Made by a program: the position numbers and the translations under genes. From the NCBI RefSeq assembly GCF_007833355.1, contig NZ_CP020914.1, forward strand, positions 1,102,047 to 1,166,046: DNA of 64,000 bases, given 5' to 3'. Below, piece by piece: positions 34,483 to 47,455 of the stretch; the first letter of the stretch is position 1, and every line of letters starts with the position of its first letter. The DNA is from Denitratisoma sp. DHT3. Lineage in GTDB: Bacteria; Pseudomonadota; Gammaproteobacteria; Burkholderiales; Rhodocyclaceae. Below the pieces are notes generated by a model. The model was not told the origin of the DNA, ran no database searches, and was given only the letters and a program-made list of their open reading frames with translations.

Positions 34483-36102
34483 ATGACCACCACGCCCACT
34501 CTCGCCCTGCCCGCCGGCATGCAGATCAACGCGCCGCTCCAGCCCGGCTATGAGCGCATCCTCACCACCGAGGCCCTGGCGCTGGTCGTCAAGCTGCACC
34601 GCGCCTGCGAGCCGCGCCGCCAGGAACTGCTGAAGAAGCGCATCGAGCGCCAGGCCCGCATCGACGCCGGCGAGATGCCCGACTTCCTGCCCGAGACCCA
34701 AGCCGTGCGCGATGGCGACTGGAAGGTGGCGCCGCTGCCGAAGGCCCTGGAATGCCGCCGCGTCGAGATCACCGGCCCGGTCGAACGCAAGATGATCATC
34801 AACGCCTTCAACTCCGGCGCCGACAGCTACATGACCGACTTCGAGGATTCCAACAGCCCGAAGTGGGACAACCAGATCCAGGGCCAGATCAACCTCTACG
34901 ACGCCGTGCGGCGCCAGATCAGCCATACCAACGAGGCCGGCAAGACCTACCGGCTCAACGACACCATCGCCACCCTGCAGGTGCGCCCCCGCGGCTGGCA
35001 CCTGGACGAAAAGCACGTCACCGTGGACGGCCAGCGCGTCTCCGGCGGCATCTTCGACTTCGCCCTGTTCTTCTTCCACAACGCCAAAGAGCAGATCGCC
35101 CGGAGTAACGGTAGCGCCGGCCCCTTCTTCTACCTGCCCAAGATGGAAAGCCACCTGGAGGCCCGGCTGTGGAACGACATCTTCTGTCTGGCCCAGGACC
35201 ACATCGGCCTGCCCCGCGGCACCATCAAGGCCACCGTGCTGATCGAGACCATCCTCGCCACCTTCGAGATGGAGGAAATCCTCTATGAGCTGCGCGAGCA
35301 CAGCGCGGGCCTCAACGCCGGCCGCTGGGACTACATCTTCTCCTGCATCAAGAAGTTCAAGAAGAACCAGGATTTCTGCCTCGCCCAACGCAGCGCCATC
35401 ACCATGGAAGTGCCCTTCATGCGCGCCTACGCCCTGGCCCTGGTGAAGGCCTGCCACAAGCGCGGCGCCCCCGCCATGGGCGGCATGAGCGCGCTGATCC
35501 CGATCAAGAACGACCCCGAGGCCAACGAAAAGGCGCTCGCTGGCATCCGCCGCGACAAGACCCGCGACGCCAACGACGGCTTCGACGGCGGCTGGGTGGC
35601 CCACCCCGGGCTGGTCTCCATCGCCATGGAGGAATTCAAGAAGGTGCTGGGCGAGCGCCCCAACCAGTGGGAGAAACAGCGCGACGAGACCTTCGGCGCG
35701 CAGGATTTCCTCAACTTCCAGCCCGAGGCCCCCATCACCGAAACGGGCCTGCGCAACAACATCAACGTCGGCATCCACTACCTGGGCGCCTGGCTCGCCG
35801 GCAACGGCTGCGTGCCCATCCACAACCTGATGGAAGACGCCGCCACCGCCGAGATCAGCCGCTCCCAGGTGTGGCAGTGGGTGGTGAGCCCCAAGGGCGT
35901 GCTCGACGATGGCCGCAAGGTCACCGCCGACATGGTGCGCCCCATGATCGCCGAGGAACTGGCCAAGGTGAAGGCCACCGTCAGCGCCCAGGGCGAGGAT
36001 ACTGCCACCTACGACCAGGCGGCGGTGATCTTCGACAAGATGAGTCTGGCGCCGGAGTATCCGGAGTTCCTGACGCTGCCGTTGTATGAGGCGATGGCGT
36101 AA
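34483..36102 (+). CDS. aceB: Malate synthase A
   Basis: AceB condenses glyoxylate with acetyl-CoA to malate in the glyoxylate shunt. The 539-residue protein has the family motifs VRPRGWHLDEKHV (about 167-179, glyoxylate-site Arg), WDYIFSCIKKFKK (about 285-297) and PMGGMSALIPI. The ATG at 34483 has AAGGA seven bases upstream. No isocitrate lyase gene is in the window. The transcript ends in a strong hairpin at 36132-36159. Confidence 0.97.
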   Translation: MTTTPTLALPAGMQINAPLQPGYERILTTEALALVVKLHRACEPRRQELLKKRIERQARIDAGEMPDFLPETQAVRDGDWKVAPLPKALECRRVEITGPVERKMIINAFNSGADSYMTDFEDSNSPKWDNQIQGQINLYDAVRRQISHTNEAGKTYRLNDTIATLQVRPRGWHLDEKHVTVDGQRVSGGIFDFALFFFHNAKEQIARSNGSAGPFFYLPKMESHLEARLWNDIFCLAQDHIGLPRGTIKATVLIETILATFEMEEILYELREHSAGLNAGRWDYIFSCIKKFKKNQDFCLAQRSAITMEVPFMRAYALALVKACHKRGAPAMGGMSALIPIKNDPEANEKALAGIRRDKTRDANDGFDGGWVAHPGLVSIAMEEFKKVLGERPNQWEKQRDETFGAQDFLNFQPEAPITETGLRNNINVGIHYLGAWLAGNGCVPIHNLMEDAATAEISRSQVWQWVVSPKGVLDDGRKVTADMVRPMIAEELAKVKATVSAQGEDTATYDQAAVIFDKMSLAPEYPEFLTLPLYEAMA

Positions 36103-36131
36103 GACAGTCCGCGAAAGTAAGCACTGACGGG

Positions 36132-36159
36132 ACGGCGTCCGGGGTGACCCGGGCGCCGT
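36132..36159 (+). terminator. Terminator of aceB
   Basis: ACGGCG / CGCCGT outer arms with a G/C-rich inner pairing, followed by TTGTTTCT, 29 bases past the aceB stop. A second perfect hairpin, GTTTCTGG-AAAG-CCAGAAAC (36161-36180), follows immediately and may serve the other strand. Confidence 0.7.
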
Positions 36160-36190
36160 TGTTTCTGGAAAGCCAGAAACAAGAATTAAA

Positions 36191-36206
36191 CACCATATAA
36201 ATGGTG
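36191..36206. promoter_or_regulatory. Operator-like palindrome 1 of the restriction operon
   Basis: CACCATATAAATGGTG, a 16-base palindrome 10 bases upstream of the -35 box. It matches palindrome 2 (centre 60 bases downstream) at 13 of 16 positions, with identical CACCA/AATGGTG ends. Confidence 0.6.
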
Positions 36207-36216
36207 CAAAAATTAA

Positions 36217-36245
36217 TTGACATCGGGAAGCCTGCTAAATAATAT
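36217..36245 (+). promoter_or_regulatory. Near-consensus sigma-70 promoter of the restriction operon
   Basis: A perfect TTGACA (36217-36222) and TAATAT (36240-36245) are separated by exactly 17 bases. Transcription should start near 36252, inside palindrome 2. This strong promoter drives the half-HsdS gene and probably the whole type I system. Confidence 0.8.
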
Positions 36246-36248
36246 CCG

Positions 36249-36268
36249 TGCACCACAATAATGGTGCA
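36249..36268. promoter_or_regulatory. Operator-like palindrome 2 at the transcription start
   Basis: TGCACCA-CAATAA-TGGTGCA, perfect 7-bp arms, covers the predicted start site and ends four bases before the ATG at 36272. It is a partner of palindrome 1. Binding here would block the promoter or initiation. Confidence 0.65.
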
Positions 36269-36271
36269 TTG

Positions 36272-36853
36272 ATGAATACCTATCTCTCAGATTACGTCGA
36301 TATCCAAGGCGGCCATCCGTTCCGCGGCAGCATCCCCGCGGACCCACAGGGAAATGCCTACGCCTTGCAGATCCGCGACGCCAGCCCTGAAGGCATCGCG
36401 GACTGGGCCGCACTCACGCGCACGTCGCTCGACGCCTACAAGAACATCGTCTGGCTGCGGCCGGGCGACATCGTCTTTGCCGCGCGCGGGCAGAACAACT
36501 ACGCCCTGTGCCTCGACGAGGTTCCCGTCCCCGCAGTGTGCTCCCAGTACTTTTTCCTGTTGCGGGTGAAATCGTCCGCATTGCTTCCCGGTTTCCTCGC
36601 CTGGCAGATGAACCGGCAGCCCGCCCAGCGCTATTTCGCGAAGCATGCCGAAGGCTCGGACCAGATCGGCATCCGCCGGGGCGTATTGGAAGCGCTGCCC
36701 ATTGCCGTGCCCTCCATCGAGCAGCAGCAACGCATCGCCGACCTCGACAAAGCCGCCCATGAAGAGCGGAAAACGCTGCAAGCATTGATCCACAACCGCG
36801 AACTCCAGCTCGACGCACTGGCCTTCGCACTGCACAACCACTCTACCCGCTGA
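36272..36853 (+). CDS. Half-length type I restriction specificity (HsdS-like) protein
   Basis: 193 residues: one target-recognition domain (about 1-145, with YVDIQGGHPFRG, IVWLRPGDIVFAARG and PAFLAWQMN-type features) and one C-terminal helical spacer (about 150-193) starting VPSIEQQQRIADL. This is exactly half a normal HsdS. Known half-S proteins dimerise and read palindromic sites. The first residues could also start at GTG 36248, but ATG 36272 sits just behind the promoter palindrome. hsdM follows after 11 bases. Whether it methylates or regulates is open. Confidence 0.8.
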   Translation: MNTYLSDYVDIQGGHPFRGSIPADPQGNAYALQIRDASPEGIADWAALTRTSLDAYKNIVWLRPGDIVFAARGQNNYALCLDEVPVPAVCSQYFFLLRVKSSALLPGFLAWQMNRQPAQRYFAKHAEGSDQIGIRRGVLEALPIAVPSIEQQQRIADLDKAAHEERKTLQALIHNRELQLDALAFALHNHSTR

Positions 36854-36864
36854 CCGAGTCCCTC

Positions 36865-38376
36865 ATGCCCAACGACCAGATCAACCAAGACGCCATCAAC
36901 GCCGCCGTCTGGAACGCCTGCGACACCTTCCGCGGCACCGTGGACCCGAGCATCTACAAGGACTACGTCCTGACCATGCTCTTCCTCAAGTACATCTCCG
37001 ACGTCTGGCAAGACCACTACGAGGGCTACCAGCGGGAGCACGGCGACCACCCCGGACTCATCGAGGAACTGCTCAAGACCGAGCGCTTCGTCCTGCCACC
37101 TTCCGCCAACTTTTACGCCCTCCACGAAGCCCGCCACCAGCCCGGCAACGGCGAACGCATCGACAAGGCCCTGCACGCCATAGAGGAAGCCAACATCGCC
37201 AAGCTGCGCGATGTGTTTCAGGACATCAGCTTCAACGCCAGCAAGCTCGGCGACGAAGCCCAGAAGAACGACATCCTGCGCCACCTACTGGAAGACTTCG
37301 CCAAGCCCGAGCTGGATCTGCGCCCCAGCCGCATCGGCGCCCTCGACGTCATCGGCAACGCCTACGAATTCCTCATCAAGAACTTTGCCTCCACCAGCGG
37401 CAAGAAGGCCGGCGAGTTCTACACCCCGCCCGAAGTCTCGCGCCTCATGGCCCGGCTGATGGCGCCCCAGGAAGGCGACGAAATCTGCGACCCCACCTGC
37501 GGCTCCGGCTCCCTGCTCATGAAATGCGGCCAGCTCATCCGCGCCCAGGGCGGCGGCCGCAAGTACGCCCTCTACGGCCAGGAGGCCATCGGCAGCACCT
37601 GGGCCCTGGCCAAGATGAACATGTTCCTCCACGGCGAGGACAACCACATCATCGAATGGGGCGACACCCTGAGAAACCCCAAGCTGCTCGATAAGTCCGG
37701 CCTGCTCAAGCACTTCGATATCGTCGTCGCCAATCCGCCCTTCTCCCTCGAAAAATGGGGCCAGGAAGGCGCCGAGGCCGACAAGCACAAGCGCTTCCGC
37801 CGCGGCATCCCGCCGCGCACCAAGGGCGACTACGCCTTCATCCTACACATGATCGAAGTCATGAAGCCCGGCAGCGGCCGCATGGCCGTCGTCGTGCCCC
37901 ACGGCGTGCTGTTCCGCGGCGCGGCGGAAGGCAAGATCCGCCAGAAGCTCATCGACGAAAACCTGCTCGACGTCGTCATCGGCTTGCCGGAAAAGCTCTT
38001 CTACGGCACCGGCATCCCCGCCGCCGTCCTCGTCTTCCGCAAGAAGAAGGCCGACGACAAGGTGCTGTTCATCGACGCCAGCCGCGAATACCAGGACGGC
38101 AAAAACCAGAACCTGCTGCGCGAGCAGGACATCGAAAAAATCCTCGCCACCTGCGCCGCCCGCGCCGACGTGGAGAAATACGCCCACCTCGCCAGCCGCG
38201 CGGAAATCGCCGAGAACGACTACAACCTCAACATCCCCCGCTACGTGGACACCTTCGAGGAAGAAGAGGAAATCGACCTCATGGCGGTGCGCGCCGAGCG
38301 CGAAAAGCTCAAGGCCGAGCTGGCCGCGTTGGAAGAAAAGATGTCCGGTTATCTGAAGGAGTTGGGCTATGAATGA
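36865..38376 (+). CDS. hsdM: Type I restriction-modification methyltransferase subunit
   Basis: HsdM transfers methyl groups to adenine N6 with HsdS giving specificity. The 503 residues have the N-terminal helical HsdM domain (1-160: NAAVWNACDTFRGTVDPSIY), SAM motif I DPTCGSGSLL (209-218) and catalytic motif IV NPPF (290-293). A C-terminal helical tail follows, interacting with HsdS. It is complete, and its end overlaps the dinD-like gene by eight bases. Confidence 0.96.
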   Translation: MPNDQINQDAINAAVWNACDTFRGTVDPSIYKDYVLTMLFLKYISDVWQDHYEGYQREHGDHPGLIEELLKTERFVLPPSANFYALHEARHQPGNGERIDKALHAIEEANIAKLRDVFQDISFNASKLGDEAQKNDILRHLLEDFAKPELDLRPSRIGALDVIGNAYEFLIKNFASTSGKKAGEFYTPPEVSRLMARLMAPQEGDEICDPTCGSGSLLMKCGQLIRAQGGGRKYALYGQEAIGSTWALAKMNMFLHGEDNHIIEWGDTLRNPKLLDKSGLLKHFDIVVANPPFSLEKWGQEGAEADKHKRFRRGIPPRTKGDYAFILHMIEVMKPGSGRMAVVVPHGVLFRGAAEGKIRQKLIDENLLDVVIGLPEKLFYGTGIPAAVLVFRKKKADDKVLFIDASREYQDGKNQNLLREQDIEKILATCAARADVEKYAHLASRAEIAENDYNLNIPRYVDTFEEEEEIDLMAVRAEREKLKAELAALEEKMSGYLKELGYE

Positions 38377-39202
38377 CAAGAGCAAAGCCGTGGCCAACAG
38401 CAGCCACCGCACCTTTGAAGGCATGCGCCAGATCGATGCAGAGGGCAACGAATTCTGGTCCGCACGCCAATTGGCGAAGGTGCTCGACTACTCCGAATAC
38501 CGGCATTTCCTCCCCGTCGTCGAGCGTGCGCGAGAGGCTTGCCAGAACAGCGGGCAAGCCATCGGAGACCATTTCGAGGAAGTCCTCGAAATGGTCGAAA
38601 TCGGCTCCGGTGCCATGCGACCGATCAACGACTTCCGGCTCTCCCGATACGCCTGCTACCTGATCGTCCAGAACGGCGACCCCGCCAAACCCGTCATCGC
38701 CGCGGGACAAACCTACTTTGCCACGCAAACCCGGCTGCAGGAACTGGAAGACCAGCGACGCCTGCTGCTGCGCGACGAACTGGCCCAGCACAACAAAGAC
38801 CTGGCCGCCGCGGCAAAACAGGCGGGCGTCGACACCCCGCTCGATTACGCCGTATTCCAGGACCACGGCTACAAAGGCCTGTACGGCGGCCTGGGCGCCA
38901 AGGACATCCACGGCCGAAAGCAGTTGAAGAAGAGTCAGAAGATTCTCGACCACATGGGCAGCACCGAGCTGGCGGCCAACCTGTTCCGCGCCACCCAGGC
39001 CGAAGACAAGCTCCGCCGCGAAGGCATCAAGGGCAAGGCCGCCGCCAACCGCACCCACCTCGAAGTCGGCAAGAAAGTTCGGCAGACCATCGCCGAACTC
39101 GGCGGCACCATGCCCGAAGACCTGCCCACGCCGGAAACCAGCATCAAACAACTGGAGCGCCGGATCGAACAAATTGAAGACAAGAAAGACCGCAAGCAAT
39201 GA
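38369..39202 (+). CDS. dinD: DinD-like DNA-damage-inducible protein
   Basis: 277 residues with an N-terminal BRO-N-like segment (about 12-115: EGNEFWSARQLAKVLDYSEYRHF, then PINDFRLSRYACYLIVQN) and a long charged helical remainder ending in a Lys/Arg-rich tail. DinD-type proteins are LexA-controlled in E. coli, where DinD inhibits RecA strand exchange. Genes of this type are often inserted in type I restriction operons. No LexA box is obvious here, since the gene is internal to the operon. Confidence 0.88.
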   Translation: MNDKSKAVANSSHRTFEGMRQIDAEGNEFWSARQLAKVLDYSEYRHFLPVVERAREACQNSGQAIGDHFEEVLEMVEIGSGAMRPINDFRLSRYACYLIVQNGDPAKPVIAAGQTYFATQTRLQELEDQRRLLLRDELAQHNKDLAAAAKQAGVDTPLDYAVFQDHGYKGLYGGLGAKDIHGRKQLKKSQKILDHMGSTELAANLFRATQAEDKLRREGIKGKAAANRTHLEVGKKVRQTIAELGGTMPEDLPTPETSIKQLERRIEQIEDKKDRKQ

Positions 39203-39333
39203 GTGCCGAGGCAAGCTGTAAGACCTACTTACAAGTTCAAAGCGAGGAGGCACGGCTGGCGGATGCGGAGGACACCAAGGGACTGGAGCGGCAAGCAGGC
39301 AGTGAGCCGGAAGGGGGCAAGGATGCTGCCTGA
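39199..39333 (+). CDS. Possible 44-residue ORF linking dinD and hsdS
   Basis: An ATG overlapping the dinD stop (ATGA) opens a 44-codon frame. The peptide is acidic and begins MSAEASCKTY. It ends at 39333, just past the preferred hsdS ATG at 39323 in another frame. It might couple translation of hsdS to dinD, or be a chance frame. Nothing is recognised in it. Confidence 0.3.
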   Translation: MSAEASCKTYLQVQSEEARLADAEDTKGLERQAGSEPEGGKDAA

Positions 39334-40555
39334 AGGCTGGAAGCGACAAACAGTCGCCGATATTTGCGAAATGCAGAATGGACATGGATTCGGTCCTGAC
39401 GACTGGGGTACAGAAGGACTCCCAATCATTCGGATTCAGAACCTCAACGGCGGCCAGAACTTCGACTTCTACGCTGGTCCGACAGAACCTCGATGGATAG
39501 TTGAACCGGGGCAACTACTCTTCGCCTGGGCTGGTAGCAAAGGCGTGTCCTTTGGCCCGACAATCTGGCGGGGAACGCGTGGTGTGCTGAACCAGCACAT
39601 TTTCAGGGTCCATGCCAAAGAAGGTATAGACAATGCATGGCTCTATTGGGCGCTGAGGCATGTAACGGATCGAATCGAGGCAAACGCGCACGGATTCAAA
39701 GCGACCTTAGTCCACGTCAAGAAGTCCGACATTGACCAGCAGAGCGTAATCGTTCCCGACCAAGGGACTCAAACACGAATTGCTGAGGTCATGCAGACGT
39801 GGGACGAAGCCATCGCCGCAACCGAAAAGCTGCTCGCCAACAGCCGCAAGCAGAAGCAGACTCTTGCCCAACAGGTCCTGCGAGGTATCAAGCGTCTCGG
39901 CAAATTCAAGACCAGTGCCGATTGGAAGAACACGCCTCATGGCCCAATCCCTGCCGACTGGTCATATCCCCGCATAGGCACAGTAGCCAAGGAAGTCAGC
40001 GGCAAACATAGCTCAGGCGCAGACTATCCAGTCCTTTCTTGCACGAAACACGGAGGACTCGTCGACTCCCTTCAGTATTTCAAGAAGCGTGTCTTCAGCG
40101 AAGACTTGTCGACCTACAAGGTCGTACCGTGCGAAAGCTTCGTTTATGCGACCAACCATATCGAGGAAGGGTCCATCGGTTACCAGAACCTGTACGACTT
40201 CGGTTTGGTCAGTCCTATGTATACCGTCTTCAGCACCAACGACGAGGTCGACGATGGCTATCTGTATCGACTGCTGAAGACTGAGCATTACCGGCAGATA
40301 TTCGCGGCCAATACCAACTCGTCGGTGGATCGTCGCGGCAGCTTGCGCTGGAAGGACTTCAAGCAGATTCACATCCCGTTGCCATCGCTCCCCGAACAGC
40401 GGGCCATCGCGGAGCTTATTGATCTGGCAGATCGGGAAATCGAACTGATCGAGAAGAAACTCGAAATGCTGAGGGAGGAAAAGCGAGCCCTCATGCAACA
40501 ACTCCTCACCGGCAAACGCCGCGTACGCGTTCCCGCCAGCGAGGCCACGCCATGA
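39323..40555 (+). CDS. hsdS: Type I restriction specificity subunit
   Basis: 410 residues from the ATG at 39323 (G-rich ribosome site about five bases upstream; the normal N-terminus is MLPEGWKRQTVADI). It has two target-recognition domains (about 5-160 and 215-365), each followed by a conserved helical region (EVMQTWDEAIAATEKLLANS and LIDLADREIELIEKKLE). It would recognise an asymmetric bipartite site. Its base composition is visibly lower in GC than hsdM and hsdR, as usual for rapidly exchanged hsdS genes. It overlaps hsdR by four bases. Confidence 0.94.
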   Translation: MLPEGWKRQTVADICEMQNGHGFGPDDWGTEGLPIIRIQNLNGGQNFDFYAGPTEPRWIVEPGQLLFAWAGSKGVSFGPTIWRGTRGVLNQHIFRVHAKEGIDNAWLYWALRHVTDRIEANAHGFKATLVHVKKSDIDQQSVIVPDQGTQTRIAEVMQTWDEAIAATEKLLANSRKQKQTLAQQVLRGIKRLGKFKTSADWKNTPHGPIPADWSYPRIGTVAKEVSGKHSSGADYPVLSCTKHGGLVDSLQYFKKRVFSEDLSTYKVVPCESFVYATNHIEEGSIGYQNLYDFGLVSPMYTVFSTNDEVDDGYLYRLLKTEHYRQIFAANTNSSVDRRGSLRWKDFKQIHIPLPSLPEQRAIAELIDLADREIELIEKKLEMLREEKRALMQQLLTGKRRVRVPASEATP

Positions 40556-43500
40556 GCCCCGTCCCCCAAACCCGCGAGCACTACAGCGCCCACATTCCGG
40601 CGCTGCATCTGCTCTGCAACCTGGGCTGGTCCTTCCTCTCCGCCGCAGACTGCCTGGCCCTGCGCGGCTCGACGCGGGAGGTGATGCTCAAGCCGCGCCT
40701 GATCGAGGTGTTGCAGACGCGCCGCTTCGAGTACAAGAGGGCGTGGTATCCGCTCTCGCCTTCGGGCATCGACCAGATCGTACGCGAGCTGTCGGCCGTC
40801 AATTTCGCCGAGGGCCTGCTCGCGGCCAACGAGCGGCTTTACGGCAAGCTGGCACTGGGCATCACCGTCACCGAGTTCATGCCGGACGGCAAGAAGCACC
40901 AGCCGACCATCCATGTCATCGACTGGGCCGACCCGACGGCCAACCACTGGGAGGTGACCGAGGAACTGGAGGTGCTTTCCAGCCAGGGCACCCACCACCG
41001 GATTCCCGACGTGGTGGGCTATGTGAATGGCCTGCCGCTGGTGCTGATCGAGGCCAAGCGGCCCGAATCCGGCCATGACGGCAAGGCCATGGTCGAGGAA
41101 GGCGTCAGCCAGCACCTGCGCAACCAGCGGCCGGACGAGATTCCCACCCTGTTCGCCTACGCCCAGTTGCTGCTGGCGGTAAGCCACGTGGACGGTCGCT
41201 ACGGCACCACCCACACGGCGGCCAAATTCTGGGCGCGCTGGCGCGAGGAGGAGTTCGACGAGGCCCATTTCAGCCGCGTCAAGAACAAGCCCCTGCCCTT
41301 CGCCACCCGCGTCGCCCTGTTCGCCGGCAAGCCGCAGAAGGTGCGCGGCTATTTCGAATCGCTCTGGGCGCAGCCCATGCTGCCCACGGACCAGGACCGG
41401 CTGCTGACGAGTCTGCTGACGCCGGCGCGGCTGCTGGAGTTCCTGCGCGGCTTCGTGCTCTTCGACAGGCGGGTGGGAAAGATCGTTGCCCGCTACCAGC
41501 AGTTCTTCGGCATCCGCGCGCTGCTGGACCGTATCCACCGCCTACGGCCGGACGGCGGGCGGGAGGGCGGCGTGGTCTGGCACACCACGGGCTCGGGCAA
41601 GAGCTTCACCATGGTCTTCCTCAGCAAGGCCCTGCTGCTCGACTCGGCCCTGGCCGAATGCCGGGTGGTGCTGGTCACCGACCGCATCGACCTGGAAGAC
41701 CAGTTGGCGAAGAACTTCATTGCCAGCGGCGCCTTCGGCTCGGCGATCGCCACCAAGAAGGAAGGCGAAAAGAGCAAGGCCACGTCGGGCCGCGACCTCG
41801 CCCGACGCATCGGCCAAGGCACGGAACGCATCACTTTCACCCTGGTACACAAGTTCAACACGGCCTCGAAGCTGCCCGAGTGCCGCAACGATTCGGCCAA
41901 CCTGATCGTGCTGGTGGATGAAGGCCACCGCAGCCACGGCGGCGAAACCCACGAGCGCATGAAGCAGGCCCTGCCGCGCGCCGCCTACATCGCCTTCACC
42001 GGCACGCCGCTGCTCAAGGCGGACAAGACGGCCAACAAGTTCGGCCCCATCGTTCATGCCTACACCATGCAGCGGGCGGTGGAGGACGAGACCGTGGCGC
42101 CGCTGCTCTACGAGGAGCGGGTGCCCGAGCTGACCATCGACGAGGCGGCGGTGAACCGCTGGTTCGACAAGATCACCGCCGGACTGGCGGAAACCCAGAA
42201 GGCCGACCTGAAGAAGAAATACGCCCGCAAGGGCGCCATCTACGGCGCGGCCAACCGCATCGAGCTGATCGCCTGGGACATCGCCGTCCATTTCAACGAG
42301 AACATCAAGAAGCTGGGCCTGAGCCTCAAGGGCCAGATCGCCACCGACAGCAAGCGCGACGCGATCCGCTACCAGCAGGCGCTGGAGCAGACCGGGCTGG
42401 TGAGCAGCGCCATCATCATCTCGGCACCGGACACTCGGGAAGGCAGCAGCGAGGTGGATGAGGACAAACTTCCCGAGGTGCAGAAGTGGTGGAAGGCCCA
42501 TGTCGGCCACGACCAGGAGGGCTACGAAAAAGCCGTACTGGCGGGCTTTGCCGACGAGGGCGACCCGGACCTGCTGATCGTTGTGGACCGGCTGCTGACC
42601 GGCTTCGACGAACCGCGCAACACGGTGCTCTACATCGACAAGCCGCTCCAGGGCCACAACCTGATCCAGGCCGTGGCGCGGGTGAACCGCCTGCACGATG
42701 CCAAACGCTACGGTGTGCTGGTGGACTACCGGGGCATCCTCAAGGAGCTGGACACCGCCATCCGCGCCTATCAGGACCTGGCGACCCAGACCCAGGGCGG
42801 TTTCGACGTGGCGGACCTGGAGGGCCTCTACCGCCAGTTCAGCACCGAGTACAAGCGTCTGCCGGCCCTGCACGAGGCGCTCTGGGCCTTCTTCAAGGAG
42901 GTGAAGAACCGCCAGGATCTGGAGCAGTATCGCCAGGTGCTGATGCCCCGCTATGCGCCCGAGCCCAATGCTGAAATGGGCGAGGTCGGCGGGACCTACG
43001 ACACACGACAGAAGCTGCGCGAGGATTTCTACGAAGCGCTGACGCGCTTCGGCCTCTGCCTGCAGACGGCCTTGTCTTCGCGCAGCTTCTTCGAGGACAA
43101 CAACTTCTCCGAACAGGACGTGCGCACCTACAAGGAAGACCTGCGTTTCTTCACCGGCCTGCGCAAGATCGCCCGCCAGGACGCGCTGGAGACCGTGGAC
43201 TACGGCATCTACGAGGAACAGATCCGCCGCATGGTGGACAAGCAGGTGATCGGCCAGGAGGTGCGCGAGCCGGAGGGCGTCTATCTGGTGCACAAGCTCG
43301 GACAGCCGGAAGACCCCGAAACCTGGAGCACGGAAAAGACCCGCAACGAGACGGACAAGATCCAGACCCGGCTGAAGAAGACCATCGAGCAGGACTTGGC
43401 TGACGATCCCTACGCCCAGAAGGTGTTCGCCGAGCTGCTGAAGCAGGCCATCGCCGAGGCCGAAGCGATGTTCGACCATCCGCTCAAGCAATACGCACTG

Positions 43501-43848
43501 TTCCGAAAATTCGAGGAACAGGTGGAACAGCGGGCGGTGATCGGCATCCCCGACGCCTTCGGCGACAACCATCATGCCCGGGCCTACTTCGGCGCTTTCC
43601 GTCTTGCCTTGGGAGATGCCTTCGAAGGCGCGGCTTCCGGAGCCTGGGAGGACGAGGCCCTGGCTATCGACGCTGCCGTGCGCGTGGCGGTGGCGGAAAA
43701 CTCCCTCAACCCGCAGAACATCGAGGCGGCAATTCGCAAGGCGCTGCTGCCGCGCCTGTTCGAACGCATGGGGCTGGAGAAGGCGAAGGAAGTCATCGAG
43801 CTGGTGATCCACATCGTCCGCATCGGCCTCGCCCGCGGGAAGCTTTAG
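40552..43848 (+). CDS. hsdR: Type I restriction endonuclease subunit R
   Basis: HsdR is the motor-nuclease of the complex. The 1098-residue protein has an N-terminal PD-(D/E)xK nuclease (D153 ... E167-A-K169 in PLVLIEAKRPES), an SF2 translocase with Walker A TGSGKS (346-351), a DEGH box in VDEGHRSHGG, SAT-like AFTGTP, and motif VI in QAVARVNR. A long helical C-terminus binds the methyltransferase. It appears intact. The ATG overlaps the hsdS stop. Confidence 0.97.
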   Translation: MSPVPQTREHYSAHIPALHLLCNLGWSFLSAADCLALRGSTREVMLKPRLIEVLQTRRFEYKRAWYPLSPSGIDQIVRELSAVNFAEGLLAANERLYGKLALGITVTEFMPDGKKHQPTIHVIDWADPTANHWEVTEELEVLSSQGTHHRIPDVVGYVNGLPLVLIEAKRPESGHDGKAMVEEGVSQHLRNQRPDEIPTLFAYAQLLLAVSHVDGRYGTTHTAAKFWARWREEEFDEAHFSRVKNKPLPFATRVALFAGKPQKVRGYFESLWAQPMLPTDQDRLLTSLLTPARLLEFLRGFVLFDRRVGKIVARYQQFFGIRALLDRIHRLRPDGGREGGVVWHTTGSGKSFTMVFLSKALLLDSALAECRVVLVTDRIDLEDQLAKNFIASGAFGSAIATKKEGEKSKATSGRDLARRIGQGTERITFTLVHKFNTASKLPECRNDSANLIVLVDEGHRSHGGETHERMKQALPRAAYIAFTGTPLLKADKTANKFGPIVHAYTMQRAVEDETVAPLLYEERVPELTIDEAAVNRWFDKITAGLAETQKADLKKKYARKGAIYGAANRIELIAWDIAVHFNENIKKLGLSLKGQIATDSKRDAIRYQQALEQTGLVSSAIIISAPDTREGSSEVDEDKLPEVQKWWKAHVGHDQEGYEKAVLAGFADEGDPDLLIVVDRLLTGFDEPRNTVLYIDKPLQGHNLIQAVARVNRLHDAKRYGVLVDYRGILKELDTAIRAYQDLATQTQGGFDVADLEGLYRQFSTEYKRLPALHEALWAFFKEVKNRQDLEQYRQVLMPRYAPEPNAEMGEVGGTYDTRQKLREDFYEALTRFGLCLQTALSSRSFFEDNNFSEQDVRTYKEDLRFFTGLRKIARQDALETVDYGIYEEQIRRMVDKQVIGQEVREPEGVYLVHKLGQPEDPETWSTEKTRNETDKIQTRLKKTIEQDLADDPYAQKVFAELLKQAIAEAEAMFDHPLKQYALFRKFEEQVEQRAVIGIPDAFGDNHHARAYFGAFRLALGDAFEGAASGAWEDEALAIDAAVRVAVAENSLNPQNIEAAIRKALLPRLFERMGLEKAKEVIELVIHIVRIGLARGKL

Positions 43849-43850
43849 GC

Positions 43851-44576
43851 GTGCGCCGGCACATCAGCTACGGCGAGGAGCGCATCGGTTTCTCGATTCG
43901 TTTCGTGCCGCGCCCGGCCAAGCGAATCTCTATCCATATCGCACCCGATGGCGTGGTCTCGGTGGACGCGCCGGAAGGCACGGCGGTCGCGGAGGTCATG
44001 GCGGCCGTGCGCCGCCGCGTGCGCTGGGTCTGGCTGCGCCTGCGCGCCGGCCGCGAGCGTGTCCGCCACGTGCTGCCGCGGGAGTACGTCAGCGGCGAAA
44101 GCCACTTCTACCTCGGGCGGCGCCATGTGCTGAAAGTGATCGTCGCGGCCAAGGACGAACCGGGTGTCAAGCTGCTGCGCGGCAGGCTGGAAATCCGCGT
44201 GCCGGCACGAAAACCGGCACAGGTACGCACGCTGCTCGATGCCTGGTATCGGCGGCGAGCCGATGAGGTGTTTGCCCGGCGCATTGCCACATGCGCGGTG
44301 CAGGCTCCCTGGATCAAGCAGGCGCCGGCATTTCGCCTGCTGACGATGCGCACCCAGTGGGGCAGTTGTTCGCCCAAGGGGGGACTCTTGCTGAACCCCA
44401 TGCTGGTCAAGGCGCCCACCCCCTGCATCGACTACGTGATCCTCCACGAGCTGTGCCACCTCAAGGAACACAACCACAGCCCCCACTTCTACGAACTGCT
44501 CGCGGGCCTGATGGAGGATTGGCAGGGAAGGAAAGCAGAACTGGATGCTCTGGCCGACCATTTGCTCAATCGCTGA
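43851..44576 (+). CDS. YgjP-type zinc metallopeptidase domain protein
   Basis: 241 residues. The core carries H199-E200-x2-H203 in ILHELCHLKEHNHSPHF, with a third His at 212. This is the HExxH...H zinc site of the YgjP/WLM family (formerly DUF45), together with the diagnostic WGSCSPKG (170-177). It starts with GTG two bases after the hsdR stop and so belongs to the operon. Such genes are repeatedly found beside hsdR; their role in restriction is unknown, and proteolytic control of HsdR is a possible idea. Confidence 0.85.
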   Translation: MRRHISYGEERIGFSIRFVPRPAKRISIHIAPDGVVSVDAPEGTAVAEVMAAVRRRVRWVWLRLRAGRERVRHVLPREYVSGESHFYLGRRHVLKVIVAAKDEPGVKLLRGRLEIRVPARKPAQVRTLLDAWYRRRADEVFARRIATCAVQAPWIKQAPAFRLLTMRTQWGSCSPKGGLLLNPMLVKAPTPCIDYVILHELCHLKEHNHSPHFYELLAGLMEDWQGRKAELDALADHLLNR

Positions 44577-44712: not shown

Positions 44713-45651
44713 ATGAAACTCAATCTCCGCCAGACCGTCATCGACTTCCTCAAGGCCCGCCCCGGCCAGCCTCATACGGCAAGGCAGATCGCACTGTGGA
44801 TGTTCGAGAACCTGCGCGATGCCTGCGAGGAAAAGCGCCGCAACAGCCAGCAGGACTTGAGCGACGATGCGGCGTTGATACAGCAGCTCGTCGCCGAGAT
44901 CGGCGCCAACCGGCCGGAAATCCAGAAGAAGGAGCCGCATATCCGTACGACGGAGGGACGGCCGCGCCGCTACTACTACGCGGCCGAGGATGGCGAAGCG
45001 CCGTCCGCCGCAACGCGCACAGAAGGCAAGGCCAAGCCGGCCAGGATAGGACCGTCGGAGCACAACCTCTATCCCCTGCTCTGCCGCTACCTGCACGCGG
45101 AATTCGGCCTCTACCCGAAGCGCATCGACGAGAAGCGCGCCTCGAACCGCAACGGCCCCAAGGGCAATATCTGGCTGTTTCCCGACCTGGTGGCCATGGA
45201 AGACCTGGGCGCCGAATGGCACAAGGACATCCGCGACTGTGTGCGCCACTACGGCGATCCGCGCTGCCGCCTGTGGTCCTTCGAGGTGAAGCTCAAACTC
45301 ACCCGTGCCAACGTGCGCGAGGCCTGGTTCCAGACCGTCTCAAACTCTTCCTGGGCCAATCAGGGCTATCTGGTGGCGGCCGAGGTGGAGGGGGCGGACA
45401 CGATGAAGGAACTGCGCCTGTTGGCGGCGGCCCACGGTATCGGCCTCATCGTGTTGGACGTGGAAGACCCGACGGAAGGCAGTGAGATTCGTATCCCCGC
45501 CCGCGAACGCACCGATGTGGATTGGGACGCTTGCAACCGTTTAGCTGAAGAAAATGCGGATTTCCGCGATTTCATCCGCAGCGTGCGCCAGTTCCACCAG
45601 ACCGACGACGTCAAGCGCGGCGACTGGGATTTGCCGAGGGACGAAAGCTAA
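44713..45651 (+). CDS. HrgA-like restriction-associated protein with PD-(D/E)xK core
   Basis: 312 residues. The N-terminal 85 residues form a winged-helix-like domain (MKLNLRQTVIDFLKARPG). The C-terminal part has FPD (D158) and FEVK (E191, K193), a PD-(D/E)xK nuclease pattern, then SNSSWANQGYLVA and an HGIGLIVLD block. This matches my memory of HrgA/COG2958 proteins, first seen in a Helicobacter restriction locus. It lies between a type I system and a NERD-helicase and has its own operator-like repeats. A nuclease role is inferred, not shown. Confidence 0.7.
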   Translation: MKLNLRQTVIDFLKARPGQPHTARQIALWMFENLRDACEEKRRNSQQDLSDDAALIQQLVAEIGANRPEIQKKEPHIRTTEGRPRRYYYAAEDGEAPSAATRTEGKAKPARIGPSEHNLYPLLCRYLHAEFGLYPKRIDEKRASNRNGPKGNIWLFPDLVAMEDLGAEWHKDIRDCVRHYGDPRCRLWSFEVKLKLTRANVREAWFQTVSNSSWANQGYLVAAEVEGADTMKELRLLAAAHGIGLIVLDVEDPTEGSEIRIPARERTDVDWDACNRLAEENADFRDFIRSVRQFHQTDDVKRGDWDLPRDES

Positions 45652-45682: not shown

Positions 45683-47455
45683 CTATTCGCCCACTCCACA
45701 CAACACCAGCTCCTTCGTCGCCCGCGTCATCGCCACATAGAGCAGTTTGGCCTCCTGGGGCGCCAGCTCGCCGGTACCTTTGAGCTTGTCGGCGCCGGGG
45801 ATCACCACTAGCGGAAACTCCAAGCCCTTGCAGGAGTGCATGGTGATGAGGGTCACCTTGTCCTCGGTGTTGGCGTAGGTGGCGTCCCTGAAATAGATGA
45901 GGGGCACGCCGTGGGCGGGCAGCAGCTTGCGAATGAGTTTGGCGTCGCGTTCGTATTCGCGGTAGATCACGGCCATGTCGCGCCAGGGAATGCCGGAGCG
46001 ATGGGCGTCCTTCATGCGTTGAATGACAAATTCGGCCTCGGCCTTCTGCGTCGGCAGGTTGATGATCTGCGGTTCCATCCCGGCCCGACCGGCGGATTGA
46101 GGCATCAGCAGGGGCACGCCGTCGTCGTCGGCCTCGCTCGGTTCGAGAATGCTTTGCGCCACATCGCGGGCAAAGCGCAGGATGGCGTCGGTGTTGCGGT
46201 AGTTGATCTTGAGGATGGTGGTACGGCCGGCGGCCTGGATGCCCACGCTCTTGAAACTGAATTTCTTGCGCTTCTCATCGCCGTAGATCGATTGGGCGTC
46301 GTCGTAGAGCACCAGGAGGCTGTTGGTCTTCGGGTCCACCATCTGCACCACCAGCTTGAACCACTCGGGCCGGAAGTCGTGCCCTTCATCGATGAGGATG
46401 GCGTCGTATTGGGCGGCGGGTATCTGGCCCCGGTCCACGGCGCGGATCACCCGTTCCACCATTTCGGCGAAATAGGCTTGCAGGTCATCGTTCGATTCCG
46501 GCAGGCCGGCGTGGTAGGCCACCAGTTGGGCGCGACACCATTGGTGGAAGTGATGGGTGTGCACCTTCTGCCGTAGGCCCTTGGCGCGCATGGTCGCGTC
46601 GATGCGGCGGGCGAGGGACTCGTTGTAGCAGAGGATCAGGACGGGCTTGGTCGCTCCCTGGGCCAGATGTTCGGCGCGATAACCGAGGATCAGGGTCTTG
46701 CCGGAACCCGCCACGCCATGGATGACGCGATGGCCTTCGCCCAGGCTGCGGGCCAGTTGCTCCTGCTGCAAGTCCATGACCTGGAGCAGATCCATGGGCG
46801 CCGCGTCGGCGAACAGCTCGGCCTGCCGGGCCGGAATGCGCACCTCGGGAAACAGATGCCAGCGTACCCGGTCGATCTGAGGCAGGGACAGGGCGCCCTT
46901 GAAACGCACCGGAAACATGTCCCACAGCCGTTGCTGGAAAGCCTCGGGTTCCACGGTTTCGAGCATTTCATCCTGGCAGATCACCCGGTGCGGCGGGATC
47001 ACTTCGCCCAAACCGCCGTCCTCGAACTGGCGGCGCGTGAAATTGGGCAGCACGACGCCATAGCTCCAGGGAAAGGCCAGCTTGCCGGCCTCGCGCCCGC
47101 TGGAGAACACCAGTTGCGGGTCCCGCTGCAGCACGTCCACGGCGGCATGGGCATAGTGGCGGGCTTGTTCGAGCGGGTTTTCCACTCCCAGTGGGCCGCG
47201 ATCGGTGTGGATGGTGAATTGGCCGCGGTCGGCGGCAAGAATGGTCCGGGCTCGCCAGTCCTTCACCTCCAGGATCAACAGCCCGCGCCGGGGATGGAAG
47301 ACGATGAAGTCGGGGTGCAGCGCCGCCGGGCCGAGGGCGACGTTGTACCAGCACAGGTAGTCGCCCTCCAGCTTCTGCTCCAGGCGCTCGGCCAGGCGGC
47401 GTTCGCCGCCGCTGTCGAAGGTGCAACTGCCAATGGAAGGGATAAGCACAGCCAT
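45683..47455 (-). CDS. NERD-domain SF1 helicase
   Basis: 590 residues: an N-terminal NERD nuclease-related domain (D49, E63-V-K65 in LLILEVKDW), then a UvrD/Rep-type helicase with Walker A GVAGSGKT (249-256) and IDEGHD (357-362). It continues with the YDDAQSIY and NYRNT motifs, TMHSCKGLEF and YVAMTRA (motif VI). NERD-helicases are frequent in defence islands; some act in anti-plasmid or anti-phage systems. It is convergent with the HrgA-like gene and divergent from the beta-CASP hydrolase. Confidence 0.9.
   Translation of the reverse strand: MAVLIPSIGSCTFDSGGERRLAERLEQKLEGDYLCWYNVALGPAALHPDFIVFHPRRGLLILEVKDWRARTILAADRGQFTIHTDRGPLGVENPLEQARHYAHAAVDVLQRDPQLVFSSGREAGKLAFPWSYGVVLPNFTRRQFEDGGLGEVIPPHRVICQDEMLETVEPEAFQQRLWDMFPVRFKGALSLPQIDRVRWHLFPEVRIPARQAELFADAAPMDLLQVMDLQQEQLARSLGEGHRVIHGVAGSGKTLILGYRAEHLAQGATKPVLILCYNESLARRIDATMRAKGLRQKVHTHHFHQWCRAQLVAYHAGLPESNDDLQAYFAEMVERVIRAVDRGQIPAAQYDAILIDEGHDFRPEWFKLVVQMVDPKTNSLLVLYDDAQSIYGDEKRKKFSFKSVGIQAAGRTTILKINYRNTDAILRFARDVAQSILEPSEADDDGVPLLMPQSAGRAGMEPQIINLPTQKAEAEFVIQRMKDAHRSGIPWRDMAVIYREYERDAKLIRKLLPAHGVPLIYFRDATYANTEDKVTLITMHSCKGLEFPLVVIPGADKLKGTGELAPQEAKLLYVAMTRATKELVLCGVGE

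Follow-up and report, generated by a model that had tools for sequence, protein, structure and literature searches.

Paired palindromes at the promoter of a half-length HsdS gene suggest an autoregulated Type I restriction-modification operon

Which gene product reads two matching palindromes that flank the promoter of a Type I restriction-modification operon, and what might it do there? The question arises in the window analysed here, a stretch of 64,000 nt from Denitratisoma sp. DHT3 (NZ_CP020914.1 positions 1,102,047-1,166,046; coordinates below are window-based), which holds such an operon in the order half-S, hsdM, dinD, full-length hsdS, hsdR, half-S being an HsdS-like protein of half length. 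The features on which the argument depends are these:

36189..36208, no strand: O1, putative upstream operator, AACACCA-TATAAA-TGGTGCA (sequence; paired sites in 61/81 loci)
36217..36245, plus strand: sigma-70-type promoter TTGACA-N17-TAATAT (sequence and pattern scan)
36217-36222, plus strand: -35 hexamer TTGACA (sequence)
36240-36245, plus strand: -10 hexamer TAATAT, at a 17-bp spacer from the -35 (sequence)
36249..36268, no strand: O2, putative downstream operator, perfect TGCACCA-CAATAA-TGGTGCA (sequence)
36272..36853, plus strand: half-S, 193-aa HsdS-like protein, proposed operator-binding autoregulator (PF01420, AlphaFold2 model, fold matches)
36865..38376, plus strand: hsdM, adenine methyltransferase subunit and probable partner of half-S (TIGR00497 above cut-off)
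38369..39202, plus strand: dinD (Bro-N domain), accessory, inconstant among relatives (NF008573 above cut-off)
39203..40555, plus strand: full-length hsdS, two recognition domains (PF01420; mechanical ORF start, true start possibly later)
40552..43848, plus strand: hsdR, restriction and translocation subunit (TIGR00348 above cut-off, HSDR_N)

The operon is followed by a gene for a YgjP-like metallopeptidase (43851-44576), which also comes after R in L035, L055 and L056; the Type I island controlled by RptR likewise ends with a metallopeptidase gene, of the M48 family (PMC12255303). A 312-aa protein adjoining the operon (44713-45651) had no Pfam match at E 0.01, and a gene with a NERD domain and a UvrD-type helicase lies beside it on the minus strand (45683-47455).

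Direct reading of the sequence confirmed the original prediction of a TTGACA-N17-TAATAT promoter between two CACCA-N6-TGGTG palindromes whose centres are exactly 60 bp apart, and the placing predicted for them, one upstream of the -35 and the other over the start site, agrees with the coordinates of O1 and O2. O1 ends 8 bp upstream of the -35 hexamer and differs from the TGCACCA-N6-TGGTGCA form at two outer bases; O2 spans the predicted transcription start, and the half-S ATG (36272) is three bases further on. A pattern scan of 36100-36400 returned this as the single promoter-like site, with 10/12 matches (shuffles, mean 0.2). O1 and O2 are the only exact matches to CACCA-N6-TGGTG within the window, and the 3.66-Mb genome has 37 such places; the stricter GCAYCA-N6-TGRTGC occurs at six genome places, O2 among them and O1 one outer base short, and a genome-wide scan for the N7 form of the GCAYCA/TGRTGC site gave no match. 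Local rarity is only moderate evidence against chance, which is excluded by the comparative result (61/81 loci).

For that comparison, half-S served as a protein query (the best 120 of 253 homologues were listed and 50 aligned), and a scan of genome contigs for half-S loci gave at least 80 relatives and, with the window, 81 scored loci. The region scored comprised 200 bp before half-S and its first 20 bp, and a pair was counted when TGCAYCA-type palindromes with equal spacers had centres 45-85 bp apart and scored at least 22 of 28. Such a pair precedes half-S at 61 of 81 loci (55 at a score of 24, 35 at 26), spanning half-S identities of 36-88%; the same threshold was reached by 2 of 810 dinucleotide shuffles and by none of 76 real control stretches taken ~1.1-1.3 kb upstream. 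Conservation of the palindromes before homologous genes was a test named beforehand, and the prediction came through it unrefuted. The two-site arrangement of the proposed looping or double-operator layout likewise held up. Looping itself is possible but gained no support: centre distances range from 52 to 76 bp over the paired loci, with clusters near 58-60 and 70-74, and so have no fixed helical phase.

The comparison also amended the form of the site. The palindromes are real, but their half-sites are longer than first described (TGCAYCA), and relatives mostly have a spacer of 7 rather than 6. The commonest half-site among relatives is TGCATCA with N7, and the TGCACCA-N6 of the window is a rarer form; among the 61 paired loci the spacer is 7 in 58 and 6 in three (the window, L013 and L041). 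In the counted sites the third base of the half-site, C, is invariant, and the second (G), sixth (C) and seventh (A) each reach 95%. Helix length was considered as a cause of the N6/N7 difference and set aside, the alignment showing no helix indel that separates the window, L013 and L041. On the half-S tree L041 is not close to the window, which means that N6 either arose or persisted on at least two occasions. The 20 loci with no scored pair (L015, L026, L044, L052, L061, L063, L064, L067, L071, L075, L077-L080, L082, L086, L087, L089-L091) are of several kinds. L015 and L061 have one good site each, L071 has a variant of the TGCRTCT type, L087 and L091 have another palindrome of the AGTATG type, and L052, L063, L067, L075, L080 and L089, among others, have no clear palindrome before half-S. 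Between the relatives' sites the best promoter hexamer score averages 8.5/12, against 7.7 in shuffles, a weak enrichment that makes the promoter claim for relatives softer than the site claim.

In many relatives, L025, L030, L034, L043, L047, L055, L059 and L073 among them, an in-frame ATG falls inside the downstream operator, whose DNA thus doubles as coding sequence for the start of half-S; in such relatives O2 covers both start site and start codon. This placing could suggest that O2 is an RNA hairpin over the start codon, exerting translational control, with O1 a by-product. O2 does fold as a 7-bp hairpin (segment -12 kcal/mol, z -2.15), yet O1, which lies upstream of the promoter, is conserved too, and mismatches in O2 are not G-U-biased on the transcript strand (21 sense versus 19 antisense). 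We regard control through such a hairpin as highly improbable.

The palindromes are placed near-exclusively at the half-S promoter. In 29 genomes from the set of 80 loci, picked mostly from named isolates, GCATCA-N7-TGATGC occurs exactly 47 times, and 31 of the 47 sites, spread over 21 genomes, are in the half-S promoter. A second sample of 369 genomes across the class, drawn without regard to half-S, has 11 copies of the exact 21-bp site in 8 genomes; two of these adjoin a half-S/hsdM pair (L107, L108) and nine are not near half-S. These counts bear on whether a host regulator encoded elsewhere, NtrC-like or other, binds the palindromes. The half-site letters of TGCACCA-N6-TGGTGCA resemble those of nitrogen-regulator enhancer sites, whereas the spacer of the palindrome differs from that of the nitrogen-regulator site. 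A host factor is also hard to reconcile with 31 of 47 exact sites lying at one kind of promoter, with a site that varies with half-S lineage, and with a system that occurs in alpha-, beta- and gammaproteobacteria and on plasmids; we consider it very unlikely.

Variation of the site with half-S lineage emerged from a consensus-free search for palindrome pairs over 98 loci. At a threshold score of 25, 65 of 98 loci had a pair, against 1 of 294 shuffles and 1 of 76 control stretches; the scores of L077, L086 and L089, which come from A+T-rich or odd repeats, were not counted as evidence. From 58 plasmid records that matched half-S we examined 12. Eleven of these were annotated, and in every one of the eleven hsdM comes after half-S; 9 of the 12 reach a score of at least 25, with Acetobacter oryzoeni, Bartonella sp. 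and Vibrio penaeicida below 25 in this search. Plasmid sites of the TGCATCA type are found in Proteus sp. and Acinetobacter junii (also Methylobacter). Gluconobacter oxydans has a GCATGAA-type site and Komagataeibacter a GCACCAA-like pair; CTCTGTA-N7-TACAGAG is found in Paracoccus and Mameliella, whose half-S proteins are near-identical, and CTGTAG-type sites in Mesorhizobium and Neotabrizicola. Diverged half-S lineages, which also include those with AGTATG-type sites in Roseovarius and Actibacterium, have new palindromes in an unchanged two-site layout, and it is these other palindromes, in equal layout before distant half-S genes, that indicate that the site follows half-S. In L099 and L100 a non-palindromic element apparently occurs twice, inverted, around the promoter region of a diverged half-S (by eye, unscored).

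On the half-S tree the four CTGTAG-type proteins form one well-supported group, and the two AGTATG proteins are grouped with good support, as are the two GCAGCA proteins. TGCATCA-N7 is clustered on the tree without forming a single clade, the label needing 17 changes (shuffled mean 27.6) on a tree with long branches that meet. Operator labels were partly set by hand (L070, L083, L071, L074, L077, L078, L087, L091, L131, L133, L134, L136-L138, L140 and L141; L070, L074 and L083 are also among the 61 paired loci). At matched HsdM identity, below 85%, same-type pairs exceed different-type pairs in half-S identity by only 0.03-0.07, the HsdM identities in this comparison being those of the longest tblastn stretch only and for some loci lower than other values.

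Which product of the operon do the sites follow? In 78 of 80 relatives hsdM lies downstream of half-S in the same orientation, in 76 of them within 200 bp, and in the other two the contigs end first; S is present in 55/80 and R in 59/80 within the DNA examined. Two loci have unusual gaps between half-S and hsdM, 1.1 kb in L023 and 0.8 kb in L052. Where all the proteins were available, at 28 loci, pairs share on average 53% identity in the half-S recognition domain, 82% in HsdM and 32% in full S. Across loci, operator distance follows half-S rather than HsdM or full S: it correlates with the distance between half-S recognition domains given HsdM (r 0.29, p 0.001, 55 loci) and not with HsdM given half-S (r -0.05, p 0.65) or full S given half-S (r 0.07, p 0.20), Mantel p-values that are generous because the correlations are modest and the loci related. 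Full-length HsdS was also weighed as reader of the sites and set lower, since full S varies freely and the site does not. In the enzymes described so far HsdM is not known to favour any sequence by itself, so half-S would be the part able to give specificity. That half-S is the specificity-giving, operator-reading part is, as far as comparison of sequences can tell, well supported. At L123 an HsdM 63% identical has neither a half-S ORF in the 1.5 kb before it nor a site pair. A diverged half-S (~197 aa) precedes hsdM in L126, L127, L128 and L130, genomes of one genus, so the pairing of half-S with hsdM is wider than the operator family; in L127 and L128 (half-S up to 28% identical) these pairs have no clear site pair. 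The interpretation originally offered is in part supported, half-S as the specificity part having gained from comparison, including the changed sites in diverged lineages.

The statement that no separate repressor gene is seen nearby needs qualifying, as a DinD/Bro-N gene does lie in the operon of the window, and DinD or another accessory product might be the regulator. However, just 6 of the 80 relatives queried have DinD, and it was found at 4 of the 61 paired-site loci (a count that leaves the window aside), far from the constant association with the sites expected of their binder. Moreover, the sites persist where S directly follows M: at seven loci no gene lies between the two, and six of the seven keep paired sites. 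We find a regulatory role for DinD or its like barely credible.

The half-S protein itself consists of one target-recognition domain (about residues 1-145) and one 44-residue helix (149-192) in an AlphaFold2 model with a pLDDT of 91. Its only Pfam match is Methylase_S (PF01420), just above cut-off, and its fold matches include HsdS and the solitary half-S Esub1. With a Methylase_S domain, an HsdS fold and a gene encoded with hsdM, half-S has the marks of an HsdS of the half-length form, which would be expected to direct methylation of a bipartite target. The Foldseek matches listed, a list that excludes nothing, include no helix-turn-helix regulator, and Methylase_S and the HsdS fold alone place half-S apart from C proteins and helix-turn-helix methyltransferase repressors. 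Operator repeats at its own promoter, kept in relatives (61/81 loci), are what is expected of an autorepressor. In L035, L055, L056, L065 and L081 the operon is half-S-hsdM-hsdR with paired operators kept (scores 24-28), and a search of the 6.5 kb downstream gave no second S-like ORF, so that half-S may do the work of specificity subunit at these loci. In four of the five genomes S genes exist elsewhere and could serve in trans instead; PF01420 is a blunt tool for such searches, since half-S genes themselves were missed in five genomes searched.

We consider it likely that half-S binds O1 and O2 as a dimer, probably together with HsdM, and represses its own operon. Half-S would homodimerise by way of its one long helix, and the two identical recognition domains could then read an interrupted palindrome. 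S and M of EcoKI each fail to bind DNA by themselves (PMC3874165), which is why the bound form is probably (half-S)2-HsdM2; in that case the operon would answer to free HsdM. The complex at O2 would cover the start site and block RNA polymerase at a near-consensus promoter, and the position of O2 over the predicted start of a strong-looking promoter makes repression the likely output. O1, just upstream of the -35, may add occupancy or cooperativity. It is possible that O1 mediates activation instead, although O2 sits where a repressor would act. Negative feedback would then act jointly on half-S, HsdM, HsdS and HsdR. Just after its arrival the operon might be strongly expressed, settling once half-S, and free HsdM, had accumulated; more speculatively, full-length S competing for HsdM could set the balance. 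Dimerisation, binding, repression and the part of HsdM are steps that we infer.

Half-S might instead act alone, as a dedicated repressor that has lost both its partnership with HsdM and its role in DNA methylation. Its long site has just 6 degenerate matches in its own genome, a rarity befitting a dedicated operator, and in L074 some half-sites (TGCGTCT, TGCGCCT) are without any adenine, so that binding is conserved where methylation inside the half-site is impossible. Against this, the linkage of half-S to hsdM is tight (within 200 bp at 76 of 78 loci), S of EcoKI fails to bind DNA without M (PMC3874165), and at the five loci without full S in 6.5 kb half-S may serve HsdM. We judge independence from HsdM possible but rather unlikely, and continue to favour a half-S dimer that represses, probably with HsdM.

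Whether the operators could also be methylation sites can be asked of their form. The intervals between methylated positions listed for Type I enzymes are 6 to 9 bp, and half-sites ending in CA at the spacer are common there, for example TCA N7 RTTC and CCA N7 RTGC (PMC3874165). An operator half-site ending in CA with a spacer of 6-7 would fit Type I methylation if the enzyme modified the A next to the spacer. The 14-bp specified site exceeds the 5-9 specified bases listed for Type I enzymes in the same source (PMC3874165), and the adenine-free half-sites of L074 point to binding as the more widely conserved function. That half-S and HsdM are at once a methyltransferase and the operon's thermostat, repressing at their own operators and methylating them (spacer-edge A, interval 6-7 bp), is an idea we advance with considerable doubt. 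Were it true, promoter state would report free HsdM, half-S and methylation; half-S would be the sole specificity subunit in the five operons named above, and recognition for defence and for control would be one act.

Linked regulators of restriction-modification are known, namely the Type I repressor RptR and, in Type II systems, C proteins and methyltransferase repressors. In enteropathogenic E. coli, RptR is the repressor of a Type I system and defence island (PMC12255303). As we propose for half-S, the first gene of a Type I operon there represses its own promoter through repeated palindromes; at least two sites are needed and are kept in relatives, and the half-S sites are also paired and conserved. 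RptR, however, is a dedicated regulator of 79 aa (9 kDa) with a 6-bp TAGCTA palindrome (PMC12255303), whereas the HsdS fold of half-S has a single recognition domain, and the palindromes here are long, interrupted and set 52-76 bp apart. With a 193-aa HsdS-like protein as its first gene product, the present operon falls outside the RptR family, and reading the promoter sequence 36100-36300 by eye revealed no TAGCTA. Among Type II systems, the methyltransferases of Ecl18kI, SsoII and EcoRII are comparable in that a component of the modification enzyme represses its own system; they do so through a helix-turn-helix fused to the methyltransferase (PMC12707154), whereas here the specificity-subunit fold itself would bind the operator, and in a Type I operon. 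C proteins are also small linked autoregulators with repeated operators at their own promoters, but in the accounts of PMC12707154 and PMC12255303 they are helix-turn-helix proteins whose effect turns from activation to repression as their level rises, and the half-S fold is unrelated.

In architecture, the nearest likeness is to other half-length HsdS proteins, whose targets include GCA N8 TGC for NgoAV, with a truncated S, and TCA N8 TGA for EcoDXXI derivatives (PMC3874165). In these and in the CC398 half-S a single recognition domain dimerises and reads an interrupted palindrome with a similar spacer; the passages concerned describe them as specificity subunits of methyltransferases or restriction enzymes, not as regulators (PMC3874165, PMC6158711), and PMC6158711 likens half-HsdS dimers in passing to homodimeric transcription factors. 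Esub1 (PDB 8vsq, 8vsr), a solitary half-S with 16-17% identity to half-S, is, by the entry title, in complex with Prx. Open-access PubMed Central yielded no relevant paper on Esub1. We know of no regulatory role for it. The same collection, in which absence is weak evidence, yielded no report of a specificity subunit repressing its own operon and no paper with any of six exact motif spellings.

If the proposal is correct, it would add a widespread proteobacterial solution to the control of restriction-modification, in which a DNA-recognition subunit doubles as regulator of its operon, and a regulator with an HsdS fold rather than a helix-turn-helix. The operator would then display the DNA target of the protein encoded behind it, a natural read-out for many half-S proteins that could help to decipher the recognition codes of HsdS domains.
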